DNA from: Henricia sp. BOLD:AAB3569 | Lineage: Eukaryota > Echinodermata > Asteroidea > Spinulosida > Echinasteridae | Direction of reading: 5' to 3' | NCBI GenBank assembly: GCA_037783545.1 | Contig: JBBELK010000453.1 | Span: forward strand, 1,550,001-1,614,000 | Length of the DNA: 64,000 bases | Part shown: piece by piece, positions 277 through 58,512 of the stretch | Layout of the letters: every line of letters starts with the position of its first letter | Position numbering within the stretch: the first letter of the stretch is position 1 | Notes under the pieces: model-generated | Seen by the model: the letters and a program-made list of their open reading frames with translations, nothing else | Told to the model about the DNA's origin: nothing | Database searches by the model: none | Translations under genes and position numbers: made by a program

Positions 277-340
277 TGACAGCTTTGACAACCTGAGAAA
301 GCTCCCATGCGTTGAACCCCAAACATATGACAGTATAGAT
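277..340 (-). CDS. Gene A exon 2 (rest of helix 1)
   Basis: Sixty-four nt between acceptor CTTTCACAG and donor GTGAGTACA. Phase 0 in, phase 1 out, exactly as in D. It encodes IYTVICLGFNAWELSQVVKAV plus one base. The IY start and aromatic hydrophobic core match exon 2 of B ([15 protein letters not shown]) and D ([13 protein letters not shown]). Confidence 0.8.
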
Positions 341-2772
341 CTGTGAAAGAATGGAAACAATTGATTCAATCTAAAACTGTCAATATAATACAAGAAATTA
401 TATTATGATTATTAGTTCAGGCTTTGTTAGTGGGTAAAAAATAAAATCATAGTCCACATTTTAAACATAAAATTTGCAATGCACAACACAAAATGGCAAT
501 GCAAAAGATTTTCCTTTATAGACCTCTTCCCTATGTATTATAAGTGACTGGAAATGAAAGTGATGAAAATGTGTGTGAAGCTAAATGTAAAGTGTATGAA
601 TTCCAGTCAATTCAGTTTATTCATAATAAAGTTCACCATCTTCCACGTTAAAAAAATACATAAAAACTTCATCATGACAGGTTTTAGTATGTTAAAAATG
701 GAAATGTGGGGTCTATAAAGCACATTGAAAGTACAAAATAATACTGTATAAATACACATCCGGTAAAAAACAAATTTAAAACTAGAGCTTGGCGTTTGTT
801 TTTAAACAAACGCTAGGTGATCGGGTGACATGAACATTAATCTTATGATGACGTCACACTTTTAACATTGGTTGAAAACTTGAGTTGGTCGATATTAATT
901 GCAAAAGAAACATTCACATATCGATTGCCAGTATTGGAATTCTTAAGACATATGACTCTTTGATTATTCAACGCTAAAATTTTAGTGTGTGTCTGATGAC
1001 GTCATTATTGGCAGTCAATCTCACCATGACGTCACTATTGTGTGCACAAATTGTTCAAGGATCTACTGAAGAACAAGTTCTTACATGTGGTGAAATAATC
1101 TTTCGAATATATATTACAGTTCTCAAGATTTTGTCATTTTAGATCATATTACGTAACCACCGTGCACGTGATGACGTCATCATTGGTATAGTCATAAAGT
1201 CCACATGTGTGGGAACAATTCGTTTCGTAGAACTATGGTCAAATTCCCTACCACTTTGGCTCTATTTGCATTCAAAATGCTAAAAAATGGCACATTCTCG
1301 ATTAACTTCCGGTTTAGACCGGAAGTAGGGGTCACACAGGGATCATGTCAGTGTATGATTTGTTTAGTTCATTTAGACCTATAATGCTGTGAAAGAATTG
1401 TTCAAGTATCTATTACGGTTCTTGAGATATGAATTTTTGAAATAATAACCTTTGGATGTTGGTAATTTAACACCTGTGACGACATCATGACGTCACAATT
1501 TTGTGCACAAATTGTTCAACAATTTGATTAACATCAAGTTCTTAAATGTGGCGAAGGAATCATACCAATATATGTTGTAGTTCTCAAGATACAGCATTTT
1601 AAAACAATTCAGCTCCAAATTTGCGTAATTTGACACCACATTACGTAACCACCGTCCATTTGATGACGTCACCAATGGTATAGTCGTCCACATGTGTGGA
1701 AACATTTCGTTCCGTAGAAATATGGTCAAATTCACTACCACTTTGAATCTATTTGCATTCAAAATGCTAAAAAATTGCACATTTTCGAACAACTTCCGGT
1801 TTGGACCGGAAGTAGGCGTCACACAGGGGTCATGACATCGTATGATTTGTTCAGTTCATTTAGACTTATCATGTTGTGAAAGAATTGTTCAAGTATCTAT
1901 TACGGTTCTTGAGATATAAATTTTGAAAATAAAAACCTTTTAATTTTTGTAATTTGACACCTGATGACGTCATGATTACGTCACACTTGATGCCATCATG
2001 ATACTATACATGCTGGTGAAAGTCTGTCATAGGGCATATGTCTGTATCTAATTTACTAACAATTCAGCTTGGTTTGATGGGCATTGTTACTGGCAAGTGT
2101 AAAAACTGAGATTTTCGTTTTCGTTGAACTTTGACCTCCAATTGACCCCAGAAGGAAGGGTCAGATGAAAATGCCCACACAAAGAAAATTGTAGAACAGA
2201 AAGTCATCTATAAACCTGCCAAATACGAAGATCCTGGGTCACGTGGTTTTCAAGACGGAAGCATTTTAAAATATGCATATTTTGGTTTTTTGGGAGGTGT
2301 AATTTGATACTTGATGACGTCACGATGACGTCACGCTTGATGCCATCATAATATATACACGCTGGTGAAAGTCTGCCATAGGACCTATGCCTGTACTTAG
2401 TTTCTTAAAGATTCAGCTTGGTTTGATGGGCCTAGTGTTGCTCAATAAGTGCAAAAATTGAGATTTTCGTTTTCGTTGAACTTTGACCTCAAATTTACCC
2501 CAGAAGAAATGCCCACACGAAGAAAATTGTTGGCCATGATCTGATCTATAAGCCTACCAATTACGAAGATCATGGGTCACATGGTTTTCTAGACGGAAGC
2601 ATTTTAAAACATGCATATTTTGGTCATTTTTGGTTTGTAATTTGATACCTGATGACGTCACAATGACGTCACACTTGTATGCACATCTTCACATTGGGGT
2701 TGATGTTCCTACCAAGTTTTAAGTTGATAGCTTGAACCGTTTTGAAGAAAAGCTCTGGAAACGTTTGAGTGG

Positions 2773-2803
<31 letters not shown>

Positions 2804-11800: not shown

Positions 11801-13053
11801 ATTTCATAGAGCTGTTTAACAGCCCATTTTCCGTTAACCGAGCGTCAGGCTATTTTATAGACCGTTAAAGGTAAGCAACTGAAAACCTGCTGGAAAGCCA
11901 AATTTGCCAAATTTTGCAACAATGGCGGTTTCCAAGCGAGCGCATGCCTGCTCAAGCACGCCGCGGCAGTAAAATAGCCTTAACGTTAGCGCAACATTTC
12001 TGCTACAGTAAGCTCACTGTAAATTTCACTAGCACTTTTTGTCCCAAAATCATGAACACATGAGGCAGGTAACTGCTTATGGATGAGGTACCTGATGTGT
12101 TTGTGATTAATTTGTTAACTCGCGTCTCATGCACATGTGGGGCCAGATGAAGCTATTCCAGATGAAGCTTCCAAACGGTAGAATAAACCAGTTGAAATTG
12201 CAATTGTGAATACATATCCTGTCTTGCCCCTTTTTGAAGTGATCATGACTTTTGGTCACCACCAATTAATTATGCAAATGACTCAATGGGCCCTGCAATA
12301 AAAGCTTTATTTTTTTATTTAAAAATTTTTAAAAAAAGTCAAAATGTGTAGAGGTATTTAATTTTTTTGTAAAATTAATAATTATTAATAAAAGTAGCAT
12401 TACATTGTGTAATTTCGAATTGAAAAGCTATAAGACGCATGTCTTTCCTTAAGCCCCATACCCTTCAAAGCGCCCTCTTTTAGAAAGTGAAACCTAATCA
12501 ATATTGTTTTTTAGTGCCTGGAGACTGTGTAGACGATCGGTGGTGAAAGTTATCGTGACTTCTCGGAACCATTTTGATTGTAGTATTTTGTACCTTGTCT
12601 AAGTAATAAGGTAGAATTTTGTACCCTAAATTAAGAGTTATTCAATTAGGTACATAGGACTAGCCTCTAGTCTAGGCCTACTGAGAAAGCCTTAATTTTT
12701 CACATTTGCAGGCAAATTTAAAGATGATGTGACCATGGAGCTCCATGATGTGACAAACAACTTTCAAGAAATATTTGACATCGGTGCGTGATTTTGTTGA
12801 GAAGATACGCCGAGGAAAGCGTCAGCCCGCGAAATTACGTGAGGGCGAATTTAGGTGCCTGCAGGACTGACATCCATCCAGCTCTAGCGCCGTTTGCGCC
12901 CCAATTTGACCAAAATGAAAGTGGCTTAAATATTTCCAATTTTATCACCACTATAGACATAGTGATAGTAATTCTTACCAGGGTATATATTCCTGCAGCG
13001 ATGGATCCAGATCTCACATTGTCAAAACAAAGGCATCTTCGCATAATCGCCAT
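277..13053 (-). CDS. Gene A: LAPTM-like tetraspan membrane protein, partial (exons 1-2 only)
   Basis: Two exons of a minus-strand gene: exon 1 at 12979-13053 and exon 2 at 277-340, separated by a 12.6 kb intron packed with repeats. The joined reading frame starts MAIMRRCLCFDNVRSG and runs into helix 1 (IYTVICLGFNAWEL, then a short polar stretch). Exon 1 shares 20 of 25 residues with gene B. Exon 2 is 64 nt, the same size and phase as in gene D. Later exons (helices 2-4, tail) must lie left of position 1. By family (LAPTM4/5-like) the product would be a four-pass endosomal or lysosomal membrane protein with a cytosolic N-terminus carrying a Cys pair. Linking the two exons is inference from matching phase (0, then 1) and order. 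The alternative is that exon 2 belongs to a further paralogue whose exon 1 I have not seen. Confidence 0.72.
783..2841. repeat. CRE-rich composite repeat with terminal hairpin and poly(A) tract
   Basis: Bounded on the left by a hairpin (GGCGTTTG...CAAACGC, 791-815) and by inverted words TAGGTGATCGGG (814) and CCCGATCACCTA (2827), with an A-run at about 2769-2802. Inside are direct repeats. The word CTTCCGGTTT..ACCGGAAGTAGG occurs near 1306 and 1793. A block with GATTTTCGTTTTCGTTGAAC occurs near 2110 and 2460, period about 339. Eleven perfect TGACGTCA palindromes lie at 849, 997, 1027, 1172, 1488, 1664, 1965, 2315, 2326, 2653 and 2664. The 2.1-2.7 kb part is the reverse complement of 25.7-26.7 kb. 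It is probably a non-autonomous mobile element; class not determined. Confidence 0.65.
3056..3307. repeat. Foldback MITE ('caatttcataaagctg' family)
   Basis: The ends are inverted copies: CCAATTTCATAAAGCTGTTT on the left and AAACAGCTTTATGAAATT on the right. The interior (ATTTGTTTGCT..GGGTTAAT / ATTAACCCA..AGCAAACAAAT) also pairs, so the whole 250 bp can fold. The same terminal words recur near 11205, 21038, 35470 and 48650. Confidence 0.7.
3590..4171. mobile_element. TTAA-bounded MITE, family T1 (copy 1)
   Basis: Starts TTAAAGGGCCTGTGACATGC and ends GGGGCCCTTTAA, so the inverted ends include a TTAA as in piggyBac- or Kolobok-type transposition. The interior is shared with 7740-8066 and 14221-14775. 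There is no transposase frame; short frames here are conserved between copies only because the repeat is. Confidence 0.7.
4325..4442. repeat. Foldback, about 115 bp
   Basis: Left arm CACTAAGAGCAACTAACAATGG pairs with the right arm CCATTGTAAGTTGCTCATAGTG, around GGGCACACACCATTGTT / AACAATGGTTTGTGCCC. An isolated hairpin element; no second copy noticed. Confidence 0.6.
4741..4880. mobile_element. 140-bp TTAA foldback, family T2 (copy 1)
   Basis: Near-perfect palindrome from TTAAAGGCACAGGCTCGTCA to its inverse ending GTGCCTTTAA, with the centre at the AGCTCCAT..ATGGAGCT stem. Other copies are at 42226-42365, 50359-50497 and 55157-55299. Confidence 0.85.
6231..6600 (+). mobile_element. tRNA-derived SINE, family S1
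   Basis: The head reads like a tRNA with Pol III box A (GGCCGAGTGGTC, 6239) and box B (GGGTTCGATACCC, 6293). The tail (GTTGGTCCAG..AAAGATCCCAAAGCATTC..) recurs in minus-strand copies at 29270-29612 and 33528-33790. Confidence 0.75.
7268..7572. repeat. Foldback with TAGGGCGACA words
   Basis: TAGGGCGAC occurs at least three times on the left (7272, 7314, 7332), with the inverse TGTCGCCCTA inside at about 7351 and again near 7552. The interior has a stuttered TTAGGTC(A/T)(A/G)(A/G)AACC motif (7385-7460). A foldback-like element of unknown class. Confidence 0.5.
7740..8066. mobile_element. TTAA MITE family T1 (copy 2, truncated)
   Basis: Matches the right half of the 3590-4171 element closely (from AGACTTGTGGCAAATTGCTG through TTTCATTGATAAAAA) but lacks both terminal TTAA ends. 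Confidence 0.75.
8331..8622. repeat. Foldback family F3 (copy 1)
   Basis: Outer arms CTGAGCCT..GAGAAAAA and TTTTTCTC..AGGCTCAG pair, as do GATGCACTGAAAATCACTG and CAGTGATTTTCAGTGCAT. A related copy lies at 19530-19800. Confidence 0.6.
8909..9075. repeat. GGTCTACGTAGACC palindrome cluster
   Basis: The self-complementary word GGTCTACGTAGACC (8919) recurs in variant form (GGTCTATGTAGACTG, 8961; GGTCTACATGTACGTAGACC, 8988). A weaker AGACTG / GGTCTAACTC continues to 9190. Probably part of a foldback element. Confidence 0.5.
10385..10464 (+). mobile_element. tRNA-like SINE head
   Basis: Box A (GGCCGAGTGGTGTAGC) and box B (GTGGGTTTGAATCCCAT) at normal Leu/Ser-tRNA spacing with a long variable region. 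The acceptor stem does not close and no CCA context supports a functional tRNA, so a SINE head is the better reading. Confidence 0.55.
10509..10592. repeat. CCCGGACAAAA repeats
   Basis: Four copies of (G)CCCGGACAAAA or its inverse TTTTGTCCGGGC within 85 bp; the first two form a hairpin around GGGCGCGCCGCCC. Confidence 0.6.
10933..11823. repeat. 298-bp direct tandem repeat, three near-identical copies
   Basis: Units begin TCATCATGCTCCACCGATAC at 10933, 11231 and 11529. By eye they differ at one base (CACGCGCAGG in the first, CACGTGCAGG in the others). Each holds one TGACGTCA and ends with CCCAATTTCATAGAGCTGTT, the terminal word of the foldback MITE family. The near-identity implies very recent amplification. 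Confidence 0.92.
12979..13053 (-). CDS. Gene A exon 1 (start codon, Cys cluster)
   Basis: Seventy-five nt, 25 codons, beginning at ATG 13053-13051 and followed directly by donor GTAAGAATT. It encodes MAIMRRCLCFDNVRSG and the first residues of helix 1 (SIAAGIYTL). The ATG aligns exactly with those of genes B and D, which fixes the start. Confidence 0.85.
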
Positions 13054-21357: not shown

Positions 21358-21723
21358 TTAAACCTTTTCAGGGTAGGGTTCTGGCTGGGGAGGGTAGCCC
21401 TGCTGGGGAGAGTAGCCCTGCTGGGGAGGGTAGCCCTGCTGGGGAGAGTAGCCCTGCTGGGGAGGGTAGCCCTGCTGGGGAGGGTAGCCCTGCTGGGGAG
21501 GGTAGCCCTGCTGGGGAGGGTAGCCTTGCTGGGGAGGGTAATCCCCCTGTTGGGGGTAGCCAGTTGGAGGGGGGTTGGGATAACCATGTTGAGGGGGGTT
21601 GGGATAACCATGTTGAGGGGGATATCCCTGCATTGCATAGCCCTGTGCTGGGGCGCCACCTTGCTGAGCCACAATGACAGCTCCCCCAATGGGAGCGCTA
21701 GAGGTGATCACAGTGGTGCGAGT
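21358..21723 (-). CDS. Gene B exon 7 (proline-rich tail and stop)
   Basis: 366 nt from acceptor TTGCCTGTGCAG to TAA at 21358-21360. It opens [20 protein letters not shown], matching [16 protein letters not shown] of gene D, then shifts to Gly/Tyr/Pro/Gln repeats and ends PYPEKV. Confidence 0.88.
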
Positions 21724-39005: not shown

Positions 39006-39080
39006 CTGTCGAACAAGTCTTGTATCCTCACCGTACCTTAGTTCTTGATACCGAGAGATCACACACAGCAGACCCAGCAC
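39006..39080 (-). CDS. Gene C exon 6 (YQELR motif)
   Basis: Seventy-five nt between acceptor GTTATCAG and donor GTGATCAGTC. It encodes VLGLLCVISRYQELRYGEDT and RLVRQ. The donor is not consensus at +4 and +5. An upstream GTACGG or GTGAGG inside the exon are alternatives that would shorten it. Confidence 0.78.
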
Positions 39081-42000
39081 CTGATAACGAATTTAAAATA
39101 TATGCCAAGTTATTCCGTGTGAGGAATACACCCCGCCCCCAAACATGCCCCGCCCCAAACCCGCCACGCCTCCAGACACTGCAGCGAGTGCTGCAATTAA
39201 GGTTAAAGGTAGAGTACAATATTTGCAGTGACAAAAATTTCACAAGAAAAGCCTTACTATAAGAGTTAAACATAACACCACATGAATTTATTTCTGTCCA
39301 AAATGGTATTTTGTGTGAAGCCCCCGTCACACTTATTCGGAATTAGCAGGAATCAAGCAGAACCAGCCGGAATGACAAATTTTCAAAATTCGTGCCACGT
39401 TCGGGCGGGAATTTCAAACTGACCAACATTCTTACAGCTTTGTAAGAATGCCGTTCGAATACTTATAATGCGCTTCGAACCGTGCTGAGAAATGTGCTTA
39501 TAATGTAACACGAATGTCCCGAGTGTACCAAGAATCCCACCGGAATGGTCCCCGATAGGGTTTAAAACGCTGCCGAATCTAGCATTTTCATCAGTCTCAG
39601 CCCAGACCATGTTGCTTTGCGGCAGCTAGCTGCGTTTTCATGCGATTCGGTGGTGTTCTGAATTACGTCCGGACTCATTCAAGGGCCAATCGGGACGTTC
39701 CGACTGCATTCGAGATGTATTCGAGCGGCAATAGAAATATTCAGAAGGCATTCGAAGTGCATTCCAGCTGAACTATTTTAGTATCAAAATAGATTCCGGC
39801 AGCAATCGAGATACACTCGAGGTGCATTCCGGCTCATTTGAGGCACATTCGGGACATTCTGGCAGGATTGCCATGGCTTGCCATTTCGATTTTTCCCTCG
39901 AACGCGATCAGAATGTTTCGAATTATGTTGGAATGCCGTAAGAATAGTTAGAATGCAGTCAAAATACAGTTAGAATACACTTCGAATGCCGTTCGATATT
40001 TCTCCTCTTCGAATGCACCTCGAATGTTTTGAGCATGAGCAAAACATTCGGGCCGGCCACAAGAATGGGCCCAAATGTTTGGAATGCATTCGGAATGCAG
40101 TCAGAATTTTTAGAATGCACTTCGAATATCCCGGAATACACGAGGAAGTTTTATCCCGACGGCATTCCGGCTCAATCCGCCTCTAGTGTGACTGGGGTAT
40201 GAGAAATTAACAATTTAAAGGGAACACCGGCTTACTGTTTACATAATGTAGCGATCTAGCATCCTTGACAAACAATTTTCGATGGTCGTTGTGAAAAAAA
40301 ATTATCAAGATGTCACGTAATTTGCAGAAAGTTTATAACTAGTTTCAACTTTGCGTCAGATTTGCGTTCGCGTTCGCTTTTGCGTGATGTTTGAACCGGC
40401 CTTAATCAAGAGGCACCCCTTGGTGCCCTTTTTTGATGGGGAGGGAGGGGGAAAAAAGACAAAGACGTTTCAAACTTACATCAAGTACAATGAAAACTCC
40501 AGAGGCGGAAAGGGCGACGAGATTAAATACGTTATTCATGTAGCCATCCTCAAACGCCTGGGCAGGAAAAAAAGTGTGCTGTCATTTTCGAGACAAATGC
40601 CATGTGGAATTATTGTATAAAATAATTTTAGCAATTGTTGGCCGACGATCATTGGAAACAACAACAACGCTTTTTCCAAAATTGGTCTGTGACAAACAAG
40701 GTAATAGGTCCCAGTTCTCTGCAAACGTCTTTCAGTTATATCTCAAGAGGGCGTGCGGTGTATATCCTCCATTGGCGGCCAAAAGCAACCACTGATCCTT
40801 GTATTATAATCACTGCTTACAATACCAGATGGCGCTATGCGAGAAATGAAGCAACACGTCAGCCATCTTACTACAGGCAAGACACTGCTTTGCCTAGACT
40901 GCACCCCGGTCCACACGATCGCTTGCAATCCAATTATCACATAATTAGTGAAAATGGCATTACCATGAGTCTAGACAAGACATTGTATTTCCTGGAGTAA
41001 GATGGCGGACGGTTGCTTTATGCGCATCTTTTTATGACGTTACACCAGAGGGTATAAGGCTTTGTTTTTTAGGACATGCACTGATATTGATTTTGTGTTT
41101 ATGTTATTGACAAACGAAAAAACACGACCCTAGCTATAACATAGAGCTTTATTTTTTAATGCAATCGACAAGAGGCTCGGTTCGGCTCAGGTTCGGTTCT
41201 ACTCGGTGCGGTTCGATTGTACTTGTTTCGACACGGCATAGTTTAGTTCGGTTGGAACAATTCGGTTCGGGTTAGTTCGTATTAAAGTGCGAGGAGCCTT
41301 TACATGACAAGCTTTTGGTACTCACCGAGAGCATGATATATAAATACAGAGCGCAGAGAGCACAGTGAACCAGGCTAGTGAGCACACTGGCTACGATGTA
41401 CGGGATGAGAAGACCGCGACGATCCTGCAATATGATGAAAACAGTTTTAAAATGCTCAGCGCGTCCCTGAGACACTATGAGAAAACCTTCATAACGAGCT
41501 CGGGTAGGACTCGAACCCACAACCTTCTGCATACTAGGCAGATGGCTTAACCACTCGATCACCGAGTTTGCTGGTGCTGAATGGCCGGTTCGAATCCTAC
41601 AGCAGCGGGAACAGCAACTGATGAGGGAAGGTGCCTTTCTCAGGGATGTGATTGTTCCGGTTTTTCCCGGAACTTTCTTTTGTCTCATTGGTTTGTGACA
41701 ATGATTATTCCGGGAAAACCGGAACAAATCACATCCCTGCTTTCTGTTTGATCGGCTTATTTTATGTAACTATTACATCAATTAAAGGCCTATTATATCA
41801 TATAGATGAAAATGCTTTACGAATTCCAGAAACAACAGCATTACATAACTAAACAATAATGTTGATAAACTGCCTTGTATAGAAATTTCAGCCACAAAGA
41901 TATAATAATACTTGATAGAAAAATCCATGCATGGTTTTTGTGTTGAATAAAAAAAAATTAAAAAAAATAGTTGGCAATTTCTTCCACAAACTTGTAACAT

Positions 42001-44486
42001 TTTTTACGGGAAACATTATGTTGTGTTTTGTTTTACCTAATGAAGTAAAATTTCGGGTTACTGCAAATGATGTATTATGGCTTTAATTCTAAAGCCAATG
42101 CTCTCGTTTCGCGAAGTAGTATATAATTCGTGGCAACATCATTATCGATACAAGTGTTTATAAGTGTTTATAAATTATGTCAGAGAAGTACGCGCGTGAC
42201 TTGCCTTTATAGTTTCCTGTATATATTAAAGGCACAGGCTCGTCAGCAATGCGCGCCCGCCAAATGTGTGCCACGCAATACGCAGCTCCATAGCAAAGGC
42301 ATGGAGCTGCGTGTTTCGAGCACGAATTTGGCGGGCGCGCATTGCTGACGAGCCTGTGCCTTTAACCTTCACATTATAAATTTTGATAATTTGTTTTCTT
42401 ATCGCACTGAACACTTTCATCAAAGAGAATAATAGGCCTATAAGCATATACGTTTTCCTACTTACGCAACAGACTCCTGCCAAAAGGGGAAATGAAGCGA
42501 GGAACAGAAACACCCAGAGTCCAACGCCAAAGGCGTAGCCGTAGTAAAACGGTGCTACATCTGAAACTACAAACAACAAACCGGTCTTTTTTTGTCACAG
42601 TCACTCATTATAATAGACCTTTTGCATCGGCGGCCATGACAGGGGGCAGAATTTCATATTTGAATGCATGACGCACGGTGACAATGTGACTGCCTCCTGC
42701 TGCCGCCCGTGCGAAGGGACAGCACCATGAACTTCAACCAACATGTTTCCTCTGTCTGTCAATCCTCCTACATGCATCTTCGTCGCATTGCAGCGGTCAG
42801 GACGCTCATAACGTCGTCTGCTGCTGAACAGATCATATACATGCCTTCATTTCATCTAGGCTTGACTTCTGTAATGGTTTACTCATGGGTCTTCCACAAA
42901 GTACACTGAAATGTCTCCAATCTGTACAGAATTCTGCCGCTCGATTACTCACACGCTCAAGGATTTCAGATCACATAACTCCATTCTGCTCAAACTTCAT
43001 TGGCTACCCATTAGGTACAGGATTCAATTTAAAGTTGCATTGTTGACATTTTAAGCCCTTAATGGATATGCACCATCTTACATTCAAGACTTGCTACAAG
43101 TCCGCACAGTGAGACCGAGTCTCAGGTCAACAGGTAACACGCTCTATGTCCCCAGAACCTGTCTGGTAACCTATGGGGATAGGGCATTTATTATCAGGTT
43201 GGCGTAGTGTTGTTTTTTTTGTCCTCGCCTTCCACATCTGTGGCCGTGGTTCGAATCCCATATTTGGTTCAACTCGTGCAGTAAAATATTGGGTCATTGC
43301 AAATGATATAATAGGGCTAATAAGTGTACTTACATGATTCTGTTTGGAAAATCCCGGACTCGTACAGGTTGTACGCACCCCACGCAGCCCAAGCAAGTGA
43401 CGTCACCTGTAACAACAAACCCGCACGTACGTCACTTGGTTGTGGACGCGAATAGGCGATCGTACTATCCAGTCACACTATGCAGATTGTGATGTTATTT
43501 GACTTTGTCTGAAGGCTTCGTCCACACTATCAGACAAGTCTGATGATGTTTGATGATTTTGTTTAATCATGTGGCCACTTAAAGATCACATGTTATCAAA
43601 CTGTCCACTGATTGGCTGTTGTCTGTCCAGACTTTAGACTTTGTCTGGATTTAGCTGCATGTTCAATTTTTTGACAGACAAGTTTGATCGTGTCTGACAA
43701 TGTCTGATGGTGTTTGATGCGCGGCCCACACTGTCAGATTTTTGTCTGACAACCACGACAGACAGGCATTGTTTGTCACACGAAAAATCTGACAAATGTA
43801 GACAAGCCTTTAACTATAGCACAGAACACTGATCTCTATTACGGACTGGATAGAGTTCGCATATATATTATTCACGTGCACATGCGGGTGAAGTCATCTA
43901 GCGGCCATATTGGTGTATTATCTGTGGTCAGGGCCATAAATTAACTTGTTCGAACCTATATAACAATCATATCAAATATCTCCCCAAAATACTATCCATG
44001 GGAAGAAAGAAAAAAAGGAAATTTACAACCTCCAATTACGAGGTGGAAGCAAAAAGATTGGTGTAATCACTGCATTGCTTTATGGAACAGGATAAATTAG
44101 TTTACTATAAACATGTTTTTCAGAATGAAACCTCTACGGATTATATACGGGTTGAGAGCGCGAAATTTCAGAATGGTAATGAGACAAATATGACAAATGA
44201 TTATGGTATCAAAATCTTAAAACCCATGGGAAAAATGGGGGTGGGCGTTCAAAAATGTGATTTGGACACGCTCCTTTAATATTATCAAATAAAATTACAA
44301 GACGTAGGCTATATAGCCAGATAACGCAGACACAGTCTTAAACGGCGATAAACGGAAAACTATACGTCTGTGCTCTGCGCCCACCTGACTAACAACTTCA
44401 AAAGAGTGATTTACCATGGAGAAGACACCGGCTACTATGCAGCCACTTCGCAGCTCGCAACACAAGCAGCTCTTCATAACAGGCAT
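39006..44486 (-). CDS. Gene C: LAPTM-like tetraspan protein (6 exons found, last exon not identified)
   Basis: Minus strand. Exons: 44415-44486, 43334-43406, 42466-42560, 41326-41424, 40480-40557 and 39006-39080, 492 nt or 164 codons, phases 0,1,0,0,0. The N-terminus MPVMKSCLCCELRSG keeps the Cys cluster and RSG. Helix 1 lies in exons 1-2. Helix 2 is GLWVFLFLASFPLLAGV (exon 3), helix 3 opens LLIPYI (exon 4), and helix 4 spans exons 5-6 with Asp139 at the junction. CVISRYQELR follows. The family tail exon should lie between 35.1 and 39.0 kb, but no proline-rich acceptor-linked frame is evident on the minus strand. The tail may be short, diverged or lost, or the gene may be decaying. Otherwise no stop or frameshift interrupts the six exons, and all donors are GT and acceptors AG. 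It is head to head with gene D. Confidence 0.8.
39199..39318. mobile_element. TTAA MITE family T4, left part interrupted by a Harbinger-like insertion
   Basis: GGTTAAAGGTAGAGTACAAT .. ACATGAATTTATTTCTGTCC .. GGTATTTTGTGTGA matches the start of the 45461 copy. The match resumes after the insertion, at 40200, with TGAGAAATTAACAA. Confidence 0.7.
39319..40199. mobile_element. Harbinger-like MITE with ATTCGAA-stuttered interior (copy 1, 881 bp)
   Basis: Ends AGCCCCCGTCACAC and GTGTGACTGGGGTA are imperfect inverted repeats, flanked by TGA on both sides (39316-39318, 40200-40202). Inside, GAATGC, CATTC and TTCGAA words recur every 10-20 bp, giving dense imperfect self-complementarity. A second copy in the opposite orientation is at 59381-60644 with TTA duplication. 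A three-base duplication fits PIF/Harbinger. No transposase. Confidence 0.78.
40480..40557 (-). CDS. Gene C exon 5
   Basis: Seventy-eight nt between acceptor TCCTGCCCAG and donor GTAAGTTTG. It encodes AFEDGYMNNVFNLVALSASG and VFIVLD: a short loop plus the first half of helix 4. No N-glycosylation sequon. Confidence 0.8.
41326..41424 (-). CDS. Gene C exon 4 (helix 3)
   Basis: Ninety-nine nt between acceptor ATATTGCAG and donor GTGAGTACC. It encodes DRRGLLIPYIVASVLTSLVH and then CALCALYLYIMLS. Same size and opening residues as exon 4 of B. Confidence 0.88.
41497..41570 (-). mobile_element. tRNA-like sequence (SINE head)
   Basis: On the minus strand, a box A-like GATCGAGTGGTTAAGCC and box B GTGGGTTCGAGTCCTACCC at about 72-nt spacing. 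The acceptor arms ACTCGG / CCGAGC nearly close. It could be a tRNA relative with loop CTAGTAT, but a SINE head is as likely. In intron 3 of gene C. Confidence 0.5.
41641..41740. repeat. 100-bp foldback
   Basis: CAGGGATGTGATTGTTCCGG .. CCCGGAA on the left pairs with TTCCGGGAAAACCGGAACAA..CACATCCCTG on the right. Confidence 0.85.
42226..42365. mobile_element. 140-bp TTAA foldback, family T2 (copy 2)
   Basis: Practically identical to the 4741 copy across all 140 bp, TTAA at both ends; in intron 3 of gene C. Confidence 0.88.
42466..42560 (-). CDS. Gene C exon 3 (helix 2)
   Basis: Ninety-five nt between acceptor TGTAGTTTCAG and donor GTAAGTAGG. The split codon gives Tyr, then VAPFYYGYAFGVGLWVF and the rest of helix 2 to GVCC. 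The outer AG (TTTGTAG) would put TAG in frame, so the inner one is required. Confidence 0.85.
42706..43195 (+). mobile_element. LINE reverse-transcriptase 3' remnant (CR1/L2-like)
   Basis: Plus-strand reading, broken by frameshifts, shows the C-terminal stretch typical of CR1/L2-type non-LTR elements: HVSSVCQSSYMHLRRIAAVR, SRLDFCNGLLMGLPQSTLKC, LQSVQNSAARLLTRS, LLKLHWLPIRYRIQFKVAL, ALNGYAPSYIQDLL and YGDRAF. It is antisense in intron 2 of gene C and dead. A box B-like GTGGTTCGAATCCCA follows at 43244. Confidence 0.85.
43334..43406 (-). CDS. Gene C exon 2
   Basis: Seventy-three nt between acceptor TTGTTACAG and donor GTAAGTACAC. It encodes VTSLAWAAWGAYNLYESGIF and QTES plus one base, phase 1. 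The first bases GTGACGTCAC include a perfect CRE palindrome spanning the start of the exon. Confidence 0.8.
43507..43811. repeat. Foldback rich in GTCTGA/TCAGAC
   Basis: TCCACACTATCAGACAAGTC .. and GCCCACACTGTCAGATTTTT .. GACAAATGTAGACAAGCC. The words TGTCTGA and TCAGACA recur with inverted order, in intron 1 of gene C. Confidence 0.6.
44415..44486 (-). CDS. Gene C exon 1
   Basis: ATG at 44486; 24 codons ending VFSM; donor GTAAATCAC, weaker than the GTAAGx donors of A, B and D. One codon shorter than its paralogues. Confidence 0.82.
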
Positions 44487-47253: not shown

Positions 47254-47328
47254 ATGGCGATTATGAGAAGATGTTGTTGTTTTAATGACACCCGAAGCGG
47301 GACTTTAGCGTGTACCATCTATTCGTTG
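47254..47328 (+). CDS. Gene D exon 1
   Basis: ATG 47254, 25 codons ending TLACTIYSL; consensus donor GTAAGTAGA. Upstream context CCAAT before ATG; an earlier in-frame start is not conserved in the paralogues. Confidence 0.88.
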
Positions 47329-50300: not shown

Positions 50301-53300
50301 TCGTGTTTGTGTATGGAATATGAGATCTAATTGGCATTTTGCGTGTGACATTTGTATATTAAAGGCACAGGCTCGTTAACAATGCGCGCTCCAAATTCGT
50401 GCCGAGAAATACGCAGCTCCATAGCAAAGGCATGGAGCTGCGTATTTCTTGGCACAAATTTGGCGCGCGCGCATTGCTGACGAGCCTGTGCCTTTAAGTG
50501 GAGTCACGTATAAATGGAGGTGCAGTTCAGAAAGTCACATATACTATATATACGCCATTGCCTAGCAACCAACACGGTATTGATTCTGTACTTTACCACA
50601 TAGCAACAACAATTTAGCCTGGTCAAGAGGATACTAAGTTTGCATGTGAAGTACGTCAGTACACCAGACGCTATTTGTGCGAAACACGCAAATAGCTAAT
50701 TCACAAATGCCTAGAATTTATGAGACAATTATTTAAACGGACTCCTAGATCTCAGAACAAAATTTGAACAGTAAGACAAAGAACAGTAAGACAAAGACAA
50801 TGACATCGTAATAAAGACGTGCAACTTATACATTGTTGTTATACAAAGAACAAGAAATATGACCCACTGAGAAGCAGATACAAACGGGTGGGACTGGGTG
50901 ACTTGCTGCGTCCAGGTGAGTCGAGAGCGCGGCTTCGGGGGCGACGCCGGCCGTGAGGTGGAGGCTTGCTGGCAGCCAGTAGGATATGCCGTGCTGGGAT
51001 CTCCTCAGGAGGCCTGGCGACGTGGCCAAGTAGTTGGAGCCTCCGCTTCCTTATGATAGTTCTAAGCGGAGCAGGGTTGCTCATTGGAGATGCAAGTCCT
51101 GCAAGTGAATCCCGAGGATGGTGCGAAGACAAGTCCGGTGGTAGGCATCAATCTGCCTGGCCAGGTTGACAGGTAACGACCAGGTTTCGCTACCGTATAT
51201 AACTGGCAGCACGGTGGCGTTCAGGCAGCGCCCATAGGCCATACGCATTAGCCAGTCTGTTTAAAGTTGTTGGATGGGTCATATTTCTTTTTCGTTGTAT
51301 ACTGTGCGTGTTCAGCACACATGTCTTTTGTTTCTTGAAACCTGAGCTTCTTTTTTTGTGAGAGTAGGGCCTACAAGGCGTACTTTATGTACTTTATGTG
51401 CCAAACATCCATTGTTATTTCTACAGATTTATGCATCAATATTCTGCGGCTTGGCTGGATGGGGCTTAATAAGCATTTCGGTGTGGGTTGGTAAGTTCAT
51501 AGCAAAGATAATATAGCGCTAGACCACTTTGCCCTGAATTCCGTAATACGTCATGGCGCCATTTTAGTAAGCAAACTATAGACGCGCCTCGTTTCTGTTT
51601 GACATGCTTCTCGTGGCGCGGCGCGGATGCTGCTGTAACCATTCGCCACAACACAGATTACACCATGAAAGACATATGCACAAAGACACGATGCGCATTT
51701 AATTTGCTTACTAAAATGGCGCCTTGACATCTACGTTTTATTGAATTGATTTCGCAAGAGTGTTTCATCTTGCGCCTACAGCGCTTTATTTCATGTGGCT
51801 CATAAGGCTTTCAATGGACCACTAATTTAAAGTGAAAACGTCACAATCTGTGTATTTTCGAGGTTCCTGAGTCTACACTAAAACCAATGAACTGTTTCCA
51901 TAACAGTGCATGTTGCAGCAATGAACGTTTCAGAGAATACTATACATTTTTAGACCCAATTAATACCACGCTGTAAACAATATTGCCCGTAAATTTTACG
52001 TTCGAAAGGTAGGAAGCGAGTTGCCCCCTTTCTACCGCAATTTTAACGGTTATCCCGTAATTTGTTTTAACGGTTGTCCCGTACAATTCTACGCTATTCC
52101 CGTATATATACGGTGGTTTCCCGGTACTAGGGAGGTTTCGCAAGCGCACTGATACGGATAGCGCGACGGATAGCGCGGTTTTGTGACGTCATATGCGTCT
52201 TGCTATCCGCTACGCGTTTGCACGGCACGGATATCGAGCTCGCTATGCGTAAGCACAAAACGCGTAGCGAAATCTCGAATTTCTAGTGTTTTTCCTCATC
52301 TTTCGTTCCGTTTACGCATACAGCTTGAAAAAAGTATGAATTATGAATGTCCAGGAACTTTTTGTACGCTTCAAAGCTTTGAAACGAAAGTAAAATTTGT
52401 ATCAATAGGGAGGTTTCGGTCGCATACGGTTAGGCAAAACGACGACTATTAGTGAATTTTACGTCATCGATTTGTGCGTTTACACAAATATCCCAAGTGT
52501 TGTTTTGTTGTTTACACTGATAGCAACGCCTCTACACCTTAGTGAAAAACGGACAGCGAAAGGTAACGATTTTGAGGTTTGGCTAATCGTAGTCGTAAAT
52601 CACTAACCGTGCACACCGAAACCTCACTATTGCCGTGTTATGCCGGGTAGTTTTCCTGCTGTCGGAAATAGACTACTTTTAGCTAACATGCTGTAGTTTG
52701 GGAGTTGCGAAACCACATAAATGCCACTAACGGTTACGGGTAGCTAAACGTATGCGTACGCGTATCCGTCGGCTTGCGAAACCTCCCTACTTTCCCTGGT
52801 GCTCTAACTAATCACTCCTTCCAGTACTTTTAACTTCTGCTGATACATGTAAGGTCTGTGTCTTGACACTAAATCAACTACAATACATGTTGTTATTGTT
52901 AATTTATGGCATCTTCGGCAACTATGCCCTTTAAGCCATCAACTATACGGTTTAAGCTTTCACTATATTTTCAAGATGACGACGAAGGAGTTGCAGTATT
53001 AGAAGTGGGAGGAAAACCCCCAGAGAAATCCCGGGGGGGGGGGGGGGGAACCCACGTGGTCAAGTTTAGGGACTGAAATCCTAATCCACATACACGCCCC
53101 GGATTCGAACCCGGTACGCCAGATGAAAGGCGAGGAAAGAACCAATGCGCCAACCTGACCGCCCTAGCACACGGTTGCACACATCTACTGGAATTAAATT
53201 TACTATTAATCGCTCATTTGTCGCCAGCTTAAGTTAACTTGTACCCAACAACTGTCAATTTTGCATCTTCCCCAAGCAAAAAACTTCTTTACAACATCTT

Positions 53301-56300
53301 TACAAGGGAAATATTTTAAAGGTATACGCGCAATCACACAATGTATTGCGAAATGATTTTGACGGTTTCGGCAGTAAAATATTCATTTACGGGCACTTCT
53401 CGTAAAAAGTTACGTACTTTCCAGCGGTTTTATTTTTTTTACAGTGCATGTCAACTTACGTCACACTTTGGTACTCTATATTGCTGATGCTGGTTGTAGC
53501 TTAGTCTTGGCCCAAGACTACTCTAGTCGATATTGGTTTGTGTACGCGTTGGCCATATAGTGCGCCCTCTTGCAGCACTAACGGACCAGTCTTTGCTCAC
53601 TAGAGTAGTCTTGGGAATTTCTCCCGGAAGTTTTAACTTTTTCTTTGTTTTTGCCTAGGCTTTCCTAGGGAACCAATCAGCGAGTGACCCAAATACAGTA
53701 GAGCGTGGGAATGCAGCGAGCAACCCAAATACAGCGCGTCGACCGCAGATCTGCGTGACCCAAATACACCGCGTGCACGCGCTTCGAATGGTTTGAAAAA
53801 TATAAGGCGGCTTACAAGAATCATCGAACATGATCGTTTTATCGTTGCTAATATTTTCGGTGGCATAAGTTTCTTGGCAAATGTTTGCGAATATATTGAC
53901 AAACATGTTTGCAAAGGCGTATGACATCGCAAAATACAATTGTTTATGAAGATAATTGCGACATTGCAAATATTTGCAAAGATATCTGTGGTATGCCATG
54001 TCCCTTGTGTGCCATCATAAAACCCTCTGCAGTTATTTACATAAAACGGTACCGCCCCCAATGCTGAACTTCCGGGAGAAATTCCCAAGACTACTCTAGT
54101 GAGCAAAGGGCTGGTCAGTTAGTGCTGCAAGAGGGCCCACTACTGGAAATGGCCAACGCGTACACAAATCAATATCGACTAGAGTAGTCTTGGGCCAAGA
54201 CTAGTTGTAGCTTTGCTCTATAGCTTTGGCTGTGTGCATGTCAGTGAGTTTAGACCAATATATCTAACAAATAAAATTCATTATATACAGGCGGCATCGT
54301 GGTGGTGATGTACTACATCGAATTCATCGCTTTCGCTTCGGTTGTAATCAGTTCTGTCATTGCTATCGTCGGCGTTTCTAAGGTAACTGAAGAGTGCTTC
54401 ATTTTTGCTGATTTGTCACTTTGATACCTATTAACCGAAACAATTAATGACGCTGCTGAAAAAAGGTACTTTATGACACTGCCACTTCTCAAAAGTTGTG
54501 GTGTTCAAGCACTGGTCCAAATTCTGTACAGATATAGGTCACTTGGAATTTCGAGTTATTTTGAGACACCCATGACCCTTCTATCAGATGCGGGCAGCCT
54601 ATATAGTACTGCTCTATAGGCGATTCCTCTCTACAGCCAATTAAAATCGATTCCAAGTTGAAAAATAAGAATCGATTTCGTCATTTATCGATTCATATAC
54701 TACATGTATCGTGGAGATTTTAGAAGTACCCATCGATTCTGAATTTTTATTGAGGAGGGTTTTTCTTTTGTGATAGATTTGGCAAGTGAAAAAAATGCGT
54801 GGATTAATACAGCTAGAATTAGGGTTAAGGTTAGGGTTAGGGGTTGGGGTTGGGGCTGGGGTTGGGGGGTTTGAATTAGGGTTAATTTATTAGGGTTGGT
54901 TCAACATCCAAGACGAGGCTGTCCGTCATTGCTAATTTGAAATGTTGTCAATACATTGGCAAAAGATGAATATTCACCTTTTTTTCTGGCTGTTCTTCGT
55001 ACCCATCAGGACATAGCCCCAATGCTGTTGCCCTACATCATCTCCGTTATCTTTATGATGGTAGCCGAACTCACCTCGTACATCGTGTGGTTTTCAATAC
55101 TCGTAAGTGTTAAAAGTGGATTACACTGTTACAAACGGCGTTATTTCCATGTGTGGTTAAAGGCACAGGCTCGTCAGCAATGCGCGCCCGCCAAATTCGT
55201 GCCACGAATTACGCAGCTCCATGCATGCCTTTGCTATAAAGCTGCTTATTTCGTGGCACGAAATTGGCGCGCGCGCATTGCTGACGAGCCTGTGCCTTTG
55301 TGTATGATAAAAGCTGACCTGTGTATAAAGTCAGTTCAGTATTTATGTTTACGGAAAAGACAATTAAAAAATGTGTCAATGTTTTGAATAAATTGAGCGA
55401 AGCCGCCATTTTATTAGGCTGGTTCCCAGACTATAAACTGGCGGAAACGGAGCTATAATGCCGGCCTTGTTTTGTTCACATAAGGGCGCACTTGTACAAA
55501 AAAATGCGTGTTGCGCATGAGGAATGTCCCAAAAATATCGAAACCACGATATAGCCTAATCGGCGACTGAAGTGAAATACATGTAGGCCTTATACGTGAA
55601 AATGTGTCCATAATCGATTTTCTTCCTAGCGTGTCAAAATGTTCAATAAACCTGTGATGAACTCGTTCATTTCGCGCAGATCCTGATCGAGATCTGTGAT
55701 CTCTGTGATCTTTCTCGGACGGTGGTTCAGCGTGAGATCCAAAATGGCGACGATCACACGATATAGACACATTTAGGCTGCTTGCTTATTAAATTTACAA
55801 TGAATGTCATGGACGAAATTTCATATACAGACATTTGACAAATCTGGTTATTAAATTGCAATTCACGCGATTTGAGATCCTAGTTGAGAGCAGTTTCGTT
55901 TGTTTCTAATTCTGCGCGGTAAAACAACTCGGGATCTGGATTCAGATCTGTCACGAAAACAAACACGCCCATAGTTCGCTGGCAATGTTTGTCATCCAAT
56001 CTCATGAGCCTTTGCGAATGCGCGCAAGGCTTATTCATCTAAATGGCGTTTTAAGAAATTTTATGAACGAGGCATGCATCAGCTCAAAGTCCATTGTAAA
56101 CGATCTAAACAGCAAACTTAATTATTTTGTTCTTACTTTGATTTGTCTTCTTTGTGTCTCCAGGGCCTCGTATTCGGAGTAGTTCTGATCATACCGTTCG
56201 TCATCTTTGTGCTTTTTGTCGCGCTCAACGTAAGTCCACCACATTTCTTATGAGTTGACTAGAAAAAACAATACTCAATGGTTACACACCACATGAATCT

Positions 56301-58512
56301 ATTTCTGTCCACCAGGATGGTACGTGACTAATTGTTGTTAAAAAATAACAACTGAACGTGACACTTTAAAATACTGTTTTAAAAATGTGTATTCGCACAT
56401 ATTTGAAGTATATTGCTGCATTATGTAGCTGAAATTTCTGCAGGCTAATTTACGAACATTCGTCTTTATAGGTTATGCCTTTATTCCAGGGATCTGTAAA
56501 AGTTTCTTCCCGCACCAACATTGGTTAGAAATGACGTCATATAGAAAACGTCTTTATAACGACGCACGCACTCCAACAAGTGCGCCCGACACGTGTTCAA
56601 AGCATAGGCTCGTTTTCGTGACCATAAGCAGAAACATGTTCTGACGTAATTATTGATTCAACCAATGAACGGCTTCGGTTGCCGACGACCAACACTGATC
56701 ATTGGTTAGACTCTACAATTGCGTCAAAAACGTGGTTTTGATTGTGGTCGCGAAAACGTATAGGCTTGTTGCACAAGCGCGTTGTGCGTAGAGCACCTAA
56801 GCAAGAGTATATATTGGTTCCCGATCCCTATAGATTGGTTCGCTTATTGCGAAAATATTCTCCTGTGTGGAATATGTGGACGGGAACCAGTCTAAAGCAA
56901 GAGGTGTTTTTGACGCGCCGCTGTAAAAAATAGCACAGCGCGTCTGGACGCTTTCATTAACTAACGATGATTAACTAATCTTCGTTGATCGAAGTGATTT
57001 CTCTAGTGAGAACGGGGTCTAAGTTATTTAGGATCAAAAGTGGGATATTTGGCTATATCTCCACAGATCATCTGCGTACTGTGCGTTGTCTCCCAGTACC
57101 AGGAATTGAGGGCCGGTCGCGGTCGTCTGGAAGACGTTATTGCAGCCCGAACGGTGAGTAAATACAAACAAATTAAGTTGCGGCCATTTGGCATGTTTTT
57201 ATTGATGGGTGGTCATCTCATTGAAGGGTTTATCCCTCTGTAGGGCTTGTTAAGCTCTACGTGACAGCCAATCCAAATCAGCGAAGAACAACAGTACTGC
57301 AATACCGTGTTTCGAGAACACCAGTTGGCTTCGCTAGCCCAGTTGGCATGGCATATGCACGTTACGCAGAAGGTCCGCGGTTGGAAGCCCATCAGTGGAG
57401 CCAAGTTATTTTTCACTGCATCCACATTTCCCAAACTCATGGACATCTGTCCACATTTCTGTCGAATTAATTAACCCTGGCGGTCCCTGGGCATTATCCC
57501 TGAAATAAATCACCTATATATATTCATGTATTTCTTGAGAAGGAAACGTTTAACACTATAGACCGTATCGAATAGCCGCCATTTCGTGGGGCACCTTTTT
57601 GTTACTTAAACCGTTCAACAATGGAAGCACAATATGTGCAACCATGCATGTCCTCAGAGAACAATGAAACTTCCCCACGAAATGGCGGCTATTCGATACG
57701 GTCTATACTGTTCACCCGCCGTTGGCTTCCTTGCACATTGCGCGCACTATACCATGCACACAGAGTGAAATGCCTTAAACTTCAATTTTAAATATCCGCT
57801 GGTAATCTAAAACGTCCATTGTTAAAGCACTGAGAAAAACAGTTCGCTGCGTGGTTTTAGTGTAGACCTACTGAGCATTTTTTGAGTCAATGAAATACGT
57901 TATGACATTTCCTGATGGGAGAATCCAGTAGTTAAGGGATCCCTGAAAACCCATTTTGTTGGGTTTAAACCTGATTTAACCTGCGCGGGATGAGCTGACC
58001 TGAGCCGCGCGTTTCAAAAACAGCCCAGGAGCTCAGGGAGGCACTTCAGGCAGAGTGGCACACCCTGCCTCAGCAACCCTTACGAATACTGGTGCAGTCA
58101 GCCTTGCCACAAGAGGTATTATTACACATACTGACAGATCTCTTAGCCTCTTTGAACTTTTGGTCAGAGTATAATTCCTTTTTTGCACCGTATTATAAAG
58201 GTAAATTTCAATTTTTTTCTGTTTACACGTTGTCAGACCACCACTGTTATCATGGCAACCGGACCGATTGTGACCCAGTATCCCCCTCCAGGAACCTTTG
58301 TGGTGACCCAGCAACAACCCGGAGCACAAGGGGTGCAGCCCGGCTACGCCCACCCCGGCCAAGCCCAACCGGGCTACGCCCAACCCGGCTACACCCAGCC
58401 CGGCCAAGCCCAGCCCGGCTACGCCCAGCCCGGCCAACCCCAGCCGGGCTACGACCAAGCCACGAAGCCACCTCCCCCTCCCAATTACCCCGGTGAAGTT
58501 GTCGAAGCTTAG
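47254..58512 (+). CDS. Gene D: LAPTM-like tetraspan protein with PPNY tail (7 exons)
   Basis: Complete plus-strand gene. Exons: 47254-47328, 51427-51490, 54291-54382, 55010-55102, 56164-56229, 57067-57153 and 58237-58512, 753 nt, 250 codons plus TAG, phases 0,1,0,0,0,0. N-terminus [16 protein letters not shown]. Helices are roughly 16-38, 54-75, 80-106 and 110-137. The loop between helices 3 and 4 is almost absent and lacks the sequon of gene B. Asn130 replaces the Asp of B and C in helix 4. [15 protein letters not shown] follows. The tail (160-250) has PGY/PGQ repeats and ends with PPNY at 240-243, a WW-domain (Nedd4-class) ligand as in LAPTM4/5, then PGEVVEA. It is likely an endosomal/lysosomal adaptor. 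It is on the opposite strand to its three paralogues. Confidence 0.88.
48388..48528. repeat. Foldback with GGACCTGAAACATAATGACG ends
   Basis: ATGGACCTGAAACATAATGA..GGTTTGTTTACATGCG pairs with CGCATGCAAACAAACC..TTATGTTTTAGGTCCAT. Ends match the 19105 element. Confidence 0.75.
48583..48862. repeat. 135-bp tandem duplication
   Basis: CAAAGCAAATAAATTTTGCA begins at 48606 and 48741. The units agree to ATAGGCCTAGATCATTTGCAC and differ mainly in the A/T run at the junction. The unit contains AAACAGCTTTATGAAATTGG, half of a foldback MITE. Confidence 0.85.
48883..49162. mobile_element. Foldback MITE (280 bp)
   Basis: CTCAAAATAAAAGAAATAAG at the left, CTTATTTCTTTTATTTTGAG at the right. Almost the whole element pairs, including ACCCTGTGTACAAATTTCCA, around the AACCGGGACGG / CCGTCCCGGTT centre. 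Confidence 0.88.
50018..50282. repeat. Hairpin plus inverse copy of the 38525 repeat
   Basis: 50018-50075 is a perfect stem (CCTCATTAAAATACAGGAAT / ATTCCTGTATTTTAATGAGG). 50098-50282 is the reverse complement of 38525-38735. Confidence 0.7.
50359..50497. mobile_element. 140-bp TTAA foldback, family T2 (copy 3)
   Basis: Same ends TTAAAGGCACAGGCTCG / CGAGCCTGTGCCTTTAA; more diverged in the arms than the first two copies. In intron 1 of gene D. Confidence 0.82.
50839..51260 (-). mobile_element. LINE reverse-transcriptase C-terminal remnant
   Basis: Minus-strand reading, with a frameshift near 51100, gives [20 protein letters not shown] and W, then [15 protein letters not shown], then [20 protein letters not shown] and [11 protein letters not shown]. 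This LLYGSETW...LGHVxR order is typical of the end of non-LTR retrotransposon polymerases. It is a dead fragment, antisense in intron 1 of gene D. Confidence 0.85.
51427..51490 (+). CDS. Gene D exon 2
   Basis: Sixty-four nt between acceptor TTATTTCTACAG and donor GTAAGTTCA. It encodes [20 protein letters not shown] and V plus one base. Confidence 0.88.
52130..52787. mobile_element. TA-flanked MITE with GGGAGGTTTCGC ends (658 bp)
   Basis: Left end GGGAGGTTTCGCAAGCGC, right end GGCTTGCGAAACCTCCC, each next to TA (52128-52129, 52788-52789). The interior has the related words GGGAGGTTTCGGTCGCATAC (52409) and CACCGAAACCTCACTA (52615), so an older copy may be nested. No transposase. Confidence 0.8.
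52908..53168 (-). mobile_element. SINE family S3 (minus strand)
   Basis: Minus-strand box B CCGGGTTCGAATCCGGGG and the tail through GGTTTTCCTCCCACTTCTAA to GGCATAGTTGCCGAAGATGC, matching 25136-25385. Interrupted by a 15-base G-run near 53034-53048. Confidence 0.75.
53502..54203. mobile_element. Mutator-like MITE with 9-bp target duplication (702 bp)
   Basis: Ends TAGTCTTGGCCCAAGACTAC and its inverse, arms of about 135 bp (to GGGAATTTCTCCCGGAAG), flanked by exact GTTGTAGCT at 53493-53501 and 54204-54212. The unpaired centre (53640-54065) has no transposase; its open frames are not domains. In intron 2 of gene D, 78 bp before exon 3. Confidence 0.85.
54291..54382 (+). CDS. Gene D exon 3 (helix 2)
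   Basis: Ninety-two nt between acceptor TTATATACAG and donor GTAACTGAA. The split Gly47 is followed by [18 protein letters not shown] and the rest to AIVGVSK, the same VGVSK ending as gene B. Confidence 0.88.
54826..54905. repeat. Interstitial TTAGGG-like tract
   Basis: TTAGGGTTAAGGTTAGGGTT and GGGGTTGGGGTTGGGGCTGG units in a degenerate run, in intron 3 of gene D. Confidence 0.75.
55010..55102 (+). CDS. Gene D exon 4 (helix 3)
   Basis: Ninety-three nt between acceptor CGTACCCATCAG and donor GTAAGTGTT. It encodes [20 protein letters not shown] and [11 protein letters not shown]. Confidence 0.88.
55157..55299. mobile_element. 140-bp TTAA foldback, family T2 (copy 4)
   Basis: TTAAAGGCACAGGCTCGTCA .. 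GACGAGCCTGTGCCTTT. The right end has lost its TTAA and the centre carries a small change (CTTTGCTATAAAGCTGC). In intron 4 of gene D, 54 bp after exon 4. Confidence 0.82.
56164..56229 (+). CDS. Gene D exon 5
   Basis: Sixty-six nt between acceptor TTGTGTCTCCAG and donor GTAAGTCCA. It encodes [20 protein letters not shown] and LN: all helix 4, with no loop, the shortest exon 5 of the family. Confidence 0.87.
56236..56480. mobile_element. TTAA MITE family T4 (partial)
   Basis: ATGAGTTGACTAGAAAAAAC .. CACCACATGAATCTATTTCT .. GTAGCTGAAATTTCTGCAGG follows the 45461 and 63300 copies; ends missing. In intron 5 of gene D. Confidence 0.6.
56810..56897. repeat. Uninterrupted copy of the 35.8/36.1 kb repeat
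   Basis: TTGGTTCCCGATCCCTATAG .. TTGCGAAAATATTCTCCTGT .. GACGGGAACCAGTCTA is continuous here. At 35789-36131 the same sequence is split after GCGAAAATA by about 260 bp. In intron 5 of gene D. Confidence 0.75.
57067..57153 (+). CDS. Gene D exon 6 (YQELR motif)
   Basis: Eighty-seven nt between acceptor TATCTCCACAG and donor GTGAGTAAA. It encodes [20 protein letters not shown] and LEDVIAART. Confidence 0.9.
57558..57707. mobile_element. Foldback MITE (150 bp)
   Basis: TATAGACCGTATCGAATAGC CGCCATTTCGTGGGG on the left and its inverse on the right, near-perfect 35-bp arms, TA at both ends. In intron 6 of gene D. Confidence 0.85.
58237..58512 (+). CDS. Gene D exon 7 (tail and stop)
   Basis: 276 nt from acceptor ACACGTTGTCAG to TAG 58510-58512. 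It opens [19 protein letters not shown], then PGYAxPGQA repeats and [15 protein letters not shown]. Confidence 0.9.

Follow-up and report, generated by a model that had tools for sequence, protein, structure and literature searches.

A tandem cluster of tetraspan genes of probable DUF4728 type, with one shared exon plan, in the sea star Henricia sp.

The closest described system for the genes reported here is the Pasiflora family, which seals epithelia in insects. It was defined in Drosophila and includes CG7713, CG8121 and seven further members, little being known of those besides two, according to the paper describing it (PMC4582180). In the same paper, Pasiflora1 and Pasiflora2 (169 and 258 amino acids, aa) localise at septate junctions and are core parts there; Pasiflora1 is further described as having plasma-membrane localisation and orthologues in molluscs, echinoderms and hemichordates, a PW pair in the third transmembrane helix (TM3) that is called absolutely conserved, and the signature VxSQYQ at the border of TM4 and the C-terminus (PMC4582180). 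We analysed a 64,000-nucleotide stretch of the sea star Henricia sp. BOLD:AAB3569 (assembly GCA_037783545.1, 740.7 Mb in 2,104 contigs), positions 1,550,001 to 1,614,000 of contig JBBELK010000453.1 (C453), referred to below as the window, together with 123,686 bases of the same contig beyond it (187 kb scanned in total). The analysis confirmed a cluster of related tetraspan genes with a shared exon plan, and we are highly confident that this is a tandem cluster of the DUF4728 (PF15860) family.

Gene models were built from motif and hydropathy anchors, followed by splice-bounded exon scans. Between positions 277 and 58512 of the window they comprise four genes and 22 rebuilt exons (two of A, seven of B, six of C and seven of D). 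Genes B and D are complete, with seven exons each and introns 1 to 6 in phases 0,1,0,0,0,0; the five introns found in C and introns 1 and 2 of A, the two that lie in the window, agree with this plan. The original prediction for this DNA, that four genes share one exon plan with three on the minus strand and one on the plus strand, is thus borne out wherever phases are readable (A, B and C minus, D plus). Its picture of a local cluster of four held as to related tetraspan genes with a common plan, and fell short in extent: with the flanking DNA, the cluster comprises at least six genes (A to F) over approximately 97 kb, five minus and one plus (D). The starts of C and D lie 2.77 kb apart in divergent orientation. 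The phases 0,1,0,0,0,0 were also obtained in the full models of A and E, and F reads 0,1,-,0,0. The boundaries of B, C and D come mostly from lists showing every phase; for exon 2 in every gene, and for the exons of A, E, F and the dispersed genes described below, the source was mostly scans requiring these phases, so that there the phase is partly built in and is weaker evidence. The features are as follows, in positions of the window.

Gene A exon 1, 12979..13053, minus strand: start Met and Cys cluster, 25 residues, donor gtaagaat, phase 0
Gene A exon 2, 277..340, minus strand: rest of TM1, phase 0 in and 1 out
Gene A exons 3-7, -6162..-13680, left of the window in flanking contig DNA, minus strand
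Gene B exon 1, 35031..35105, minus strand: 25 residues
Gene B exon 2, 32741..32795, minus strand: from a splice-bounded scan
Gene B exon 3, 30596..30708, minus strand: TM2 and VGVSK, with an alternative acceptor 6 bases upstream (30714)
Gene B exon 4, 30042..30140, minus strand: TM3, LLFPY
Gene B exon 5, 24922..25038, minus strand: loop 2 and the start of TM4
Gene B exon 6, 23128..23211, minus strand: end of TM4, VVSQYQELR
Gene B exon 7, 21358..21723, minus strand: P/Q/G/Y-rich cytosolic tail with an 18-bp tandem repeat
Gene C exon 1, 44415..44486, minus strand: MPVMKSCLCCELRSGCIVAGVFSM
Gene C exon 2, 43334..43406, minus strand: phase 0 to 1, donor matching 8/9
Gene C exon 3, 42466..42560, minus strand: from a splice-bounded list
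Gene C exon 4, 41326..41424, minus strand: LLIPY
Gene C exon 5, 40480..40557, minus strand: from a splice-bounded list
Gene C exon 6, 39006..39080, minus strand: VISRYQELR
Gene D exon 1, 47254..47328, plus strand: 25 residues
Gene D exon 2, 51427..51490, plus strand: from a splice-bounded scan
Gene D exon 3, 54291..54382, plus strand: VGVSK
Gene D exon 4, 55010..55102, plus strand: MLLPY
Gene D exon 5, 56164..56229, plus strand: from a splice-bounded scan
Gene D exon 6, 57067..57153, plus strand: VVSQYQELR
Gene D exon 7, 58237..58512, plus strand: tail with 15-bp repeats
Gene E, -21028 to -28742, outside the window, minus strand: seven exons, exon 5 being placed by the aligned introns around it
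Gene F, -34823 to -38310, outside the window, minus strand: five exons, exons 3 and 4 fused, no tail

The fused exon of F (-37245..-37438, C453:1512562-1512755) has lost intron 3 and retains a usable donor and a phase-1 acceptor; exon 6 is the last of the gene. Open reading from Met to stop was obtained for A, B, D, E and F, whose exons were chosen to be open, and the proteins range from 153 aa (F) to 302 aa (B), C being incomplete. In the hydropathy profiles A, C, E, F and the dispersed gene H have four segments, B has five peaks and D has six, the dispersed genes J and K being incomplete. Among the six cluster members 17 columns are invariant, including C7, C9, R14, G16, G78-V79, P89-Y90, V160, S162 and Q165-E166-L167, and pairwise identity in the core falls from 58.5% (A-B) to 24.3% (C-D). 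Two TM3-like stretches left of F on the minus strand (around -49939 and -51606) were not counted: the first scored 49 against a best null score of 46 and the second holds an in-frame stop. They may be remnants of a seventh gene, their scores lying near chance.

To compare the exon models with chance, exons were scored leave-one-out and the reversed 187-kb sequence served as the null. Against the consensus, exon 1 of A, B, D, E and F scored 98-124 and that of C 54; no unrelated place in the 187 kb scored above 40 (42 with the C query). In all six genes exon 6 (58-119 against a best null of 38, n=2,274) and exon 4 (49-111 against 46, n=1,660) exceeded the null. Exon 3 did so in A, B and E, and not in C, D and F (38-50 against 51); exons 2 and 5 did so only in A and B. 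Exons not above the null were accepted for their position, phase, splice sites and hydrophobicity. At least six of nine consensus bases were matched by 19 of 20 donors (with a mean of 6.55, the figure for all GT being 3.73), pyrimidines had a share of 0.70 before 18 acceptors and of 0.50 before all AG, and both qualities exceeded 20,000 random draws each, figures to be read with the minimum splice-site quality that was part of the exon search.

The family was assessed with Pfam profiles over nine genes, the six of the cluster and three dispersed ones. DUF4728 was the best or second-best match in 9/9 and passed its cut-off of 26.7 bits in four (D 29.5, E 34.9, J 31.6 and K 29.3, E being the highest), so the check on DUF4728 proposed with the original prediction came out positive. 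Since A, B, C and F are paralogous to members above the cut-off, they are placed in the same family. DUF7027 (PF22954; function unknown) was listed for eight of the nine, all but D, and always below its 27-bit cut-off. The name favoured by the original prediction, LAPTM, does not hold: the Mtp profile (PF03821), which represents that family, passed its cut-off of 25.2 bits in 0/9 genes, with 17.9 (C) as the best score, and LAPTM as the family is rejected on these profile scores. In a control, a provisional human LAPTM4A sequence gave 78 bits with Mtp, 18.9 with DUF7027 and 16.5 with DUF4728, and the families look related but distinct. An exon-level search of the genome for Mtp gave no match and was uninformative, since the controls gave none either. 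The tree of the nine genes with the control LAPTM4A had support on 0/7 inner branches, so no branching order is claimed, and a search of solved structures up to E = 1 gave one weak match, UPK1B at E = 0.015.

The motif that had been read as YQELR overlaps the VxSQYQ signature of Pasiflora1, which together with DUF4728 fits better than LAPTM. The signature is exact in A, B and D (3/9 genes) and varied in the others: VVSQFQ in E and F, VISRYQ in C, VISFYQ in H, VLSYYQ in J and VFSQFQ in K. On these sequence features the genes are filed as DUF4728, Pasiflora-like, and as neither Pasiflora1 nor LAPTM. In the portion of the literature retrieved, DUF4728 turned up in work on tardigrades. Literature searches found nothing joining Pasiflora with lysosomal and nothing on LAPTM tandem duplication, and a search on LAPTM with echinoderm gave no match with either term in title or abstract. 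This family is easily mistaken for LAPTM on topology alone.

Beyond the gene anatomy, paralogy, family profile and A/E duplication, which are demonstrated here, we propose how the array arose and how the proteins may act. Each protein begins with a short cytosolic N-terminus carrying a Cys cluster beside TM1 and continues through four predicted helices with two short loops on the extracellular side; a conserved P-Y opens TM3, and a VxSQYQ-type signature stands where TM4 meets the cytosol. The array probably grew from an ancestral gene of seven exons through repeated tandem duplication; one copy (D) is inverted and one (F) has lost intron 3 and the tail. By analogy with Pasiflora1 and 2 in Drosophila, the proteins may sit in plasma membranes of epithelia or glia, packed laterally against claudins and one another as structural components of septate junctions. 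Signals for assembly or sorting may lie in the conserved cytosolic ends, the Cys cluster beside TM1 is probably lipid-modified (S-acylation is suggested), and the variable loops and helices could tune partner choice. We put forward the septate-junction role tentatively, at slightly less than an even chance; the reading taken whole, a window that is part of a DUF4728-type tandem cluster of the Pasiflora / Fire exit kind with that role, is about evenly balanced between right and wrong.

Several observations weigh against this reading. Five of the nine genes fall below the DUF4728 cut-off (A 19.6, B 16.3, C 24.7, F 21.4 and H 25.0), and the scores vary with the stretch given: joined anchor exons gave 26.2 for B, against 16.3 with the full model, 19.0 for C, against 24.7, and 30.7 for D. 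For A, B and F the lowest E-value came from DUF7027, in each case with a score below its cut-off. The PW motif in TM3 of Pasiflora1 reads PY in A to F, H and J (8/9) and PF in K, so strict Pasiflora1 membership does not hold. The likeness to Pasiflora was judged from described motifs, and DUF4728 is a family that we presume to cover Pasiflora1. A scan of 39006-35200 gave no convincing tail exon for gene C. Finally, in the core of the A/E pair, treated below, nonsynonymous divergence (dN) is about equal to synonymous divergence (dS), which fits a structural part poorly.

An alternative, which we consider unlikely, is that the genes encode LAPTM-type endosomal or lysosomal adaptors whose tail PPxY motif recruits a Nedd4-family ubiquitin ligase. 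The common layout of N-terminal Cys cluster, four predicted helices and Pro/Tyr-rich tail agrees with it, as do the weak Mtp match in C and the weak matches of DUF7027 and DUF4728 to the control LAPTM4A; the failure of Mtp in every gene, against 78 bits for LAPTM4A, and the VxSQYQ signature, which is not seen in the control LAPTM4A, speak against it. PPxY typifies LAPTM tails. Among A to F it occurs only in D (PPNY), and it occurs also in J (PPAY); it was not found in A, B and E, nor in the found parts of C, whose tail exon is missing, nor in the tail-less F. A, B, D and E have P/Q/G/Y-rich tails. In-frame tandem repeats occupy the tail exons of B (21384-21540, 18 bp x 8.7, 96% match) and D (58336-58457, 15 bp x 8.1, 78% match), and possibly differ in length between individuals.

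The Pasiflora-like family extends beyond the cluster. A search of the whole genome with exon 6 of B gave nine places: B, D, A, E and F on C453, J on contig C914, K and H on C428, and one on C922. Gene C was missed by this search, so the listing is a lower bound, as is the family count of nine genes, which derives from one exon-6 search, one gene-C search and scans of the fetched DNA. The place on C922 was rejected as a tenth gene, because over 3,052 bases it matches the H locus at 99.05% identity (4 mismatches, 25 gap positions) and is hence an allele or haplotig; with the H locus present on two contigs (C428:1068157 and C922:45666), some haplotype copies remain in the assembly. Gene H stays in frame through its first four exons, the phases being 0,1,0,0 in a scan that required them, and its tail was not found; J and K are represented by exons 3-7 or parts of them. 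Since the dispersed paralogues, in the parts read, follow the same plan, the exon plan is most likely older than the array, on the sequence evidence, and the idea that it marks a local array is contradicted by H.

The copies had been predicted to be old and selected, and both attributes apply to part of the cluster. Genes C, D and F are old compared with any other gene (dS around 2.5 or higher, at or near saturation), while A, B and E form a younger trio (dS 0.39-0.65). The introns and 3' flanks of A and E align at approximately 63-90% in long pieces, for example 82% over 899 bases, and since they are alignable A and E are recent duplicates. In this pair, exons 1, 6 and 7 differ at 33/393 aligned sites, against 85/628 in the flanks (p = 0.012); these exons differ less than their flanks, so the ends are constrained, and for the cytosolic ends the claim of selection stands. 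It does not stand for the middle of the A/E proteins, where dN is close to dS.

It is the middle of this pair that bears on a second alternative, quite improbable in our estimate, in which the genes form a fast-evolving recognition family whose cytosolic ends are kept and whose extracellular loops are driven apart, for example by pathogens or self/non-self contacts. Amino-acid identity between A and E is 87% in cytosolic parts, 49% in transmembrane (TM) segments and 26% in loops (proportions of nonsynonymous differences, pN, 0.06, 0.29 and 0.53), with the topology set by hand on A and only 38 codons aligning in the loops, which can scarcely be aligned; the same order holds in A/B (71, 62 and 28%) and B/E (67, 41 and 29%). 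Exon 5 diverges beyond its flanking introns in both alignments made: 28/79 sites differ, against 19/168 in the introns (Fisher p = 1.8e-5; four exons tested), and in the second alignment 46/81 are identical, against 112/133. Frames are intact, and each of the three length differences found in exons 2-5 is divisible by three. Against this alternative, the evidence comes from one young pair, and for exons 2-5 taken together the difference from the flanks is not significant (85/340 against 141/711, p = 0.065). In the second alignment exon 2 is identical at 38/58 sites, against 122/162 in its introns, while in exons 3 and 4 conservation exceeds that of their introns. In addition, the proportion of synonymous differences (pS) in the A/E loops is as high as pN (0.61 against 0.53), so that replacement or misalignment explains the divergence equally well. 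From the sequences, the A/E loops read as free or pushed to change, and not as proven positive selection.

Partial decay of the array, with E, C or F as pseudogenes or under relaxed constraint, appears about as improbable as a recognition role. The lack of a found last exon in C, the end of F right after exon 6, the placement of E exon 5 solely by its position between aligned introns, and dN close to dS in the A/E core all agree with decay. On the other side stand the Met-to-stop models, with the proviso on open exons given above, the intact splice sites, and the best DUF4728 score of all in E. Moreover, in a simulation of neutral drift the chance of no stop in exons 2-5 was 4-15%, and it is lower still with three in-frame indels. 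A combined reading, in which tandem DUF4728/Pasiflora-like tetraspans of a barrier type turned to recognition or to facing pathogens, with a fixed cytosolic framework and extracellular loops diversified faster than introns, seems to us very unlikely.

With the DUF4728-type, Pasiflora-like cluster as the preferred reading, the expansion is real but fairly ordinary, with one pair (A/E) whose outward loops changed unusually fast. A six-gene cluster of mixed ages with a recent pair offers material on how tetraspans divide labour, and the A/E pair offers material to ask whether loops are under diversifying selection.

Other elements were recorded in and around the cluster. Tandem arrays lie in intron 1 of A (10932-11823, 298-bp unit, 99% match), intron 4 of B (25758-26633, 371-bp unit, 88% match) and intron 1 of D (48601-48858, 135-bp unit, 100% match). 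Rfam, at the gathering threshold, and tRNA scans of the window gave one tRNA-Thr (AGT) only, at 41496-41568 on the minus strand, detected by both ARAGORN and Rfam (42.2 bits); it lies within intron 3 of C, approximately 70 bases upstream of exon 4. In the flanks, open frames of at least 130 codons include one Rab-like at -78022 and one RING/NHL-type at 96664, both named by eye.

Among known systems, the tetraspanins (PF00335) share four predicted helices with the genes described here and gave weak matches (at most 11.9 bits against a cut-off of 32.1), below the cut-off wherever listed; in contrast to them, the present proteins have no large second extracellular loop. LAPTM4 and LAPTM5 are alike in topology, N-terminal Cys cluster, Pro-rich tail and, in D and J, PPxY; they differ in that VxSQYQ replaces the LAPTM sequence at the TM4 border here and that A, B and E have no PPxY. 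The Pasiflora / Fire exit family resembles the present genes in encoding small proteins with four predicted helices, in the VxSQYQ signature bordering TM4, in a Pro-aromatic pair opening TM3 and in having several diverged members per genome, whereas the genes of Henricia have PY (or PF) for PW, a P/Q/G/Y-rich tail in A, B, D and E, and six members in one tandem cluster.

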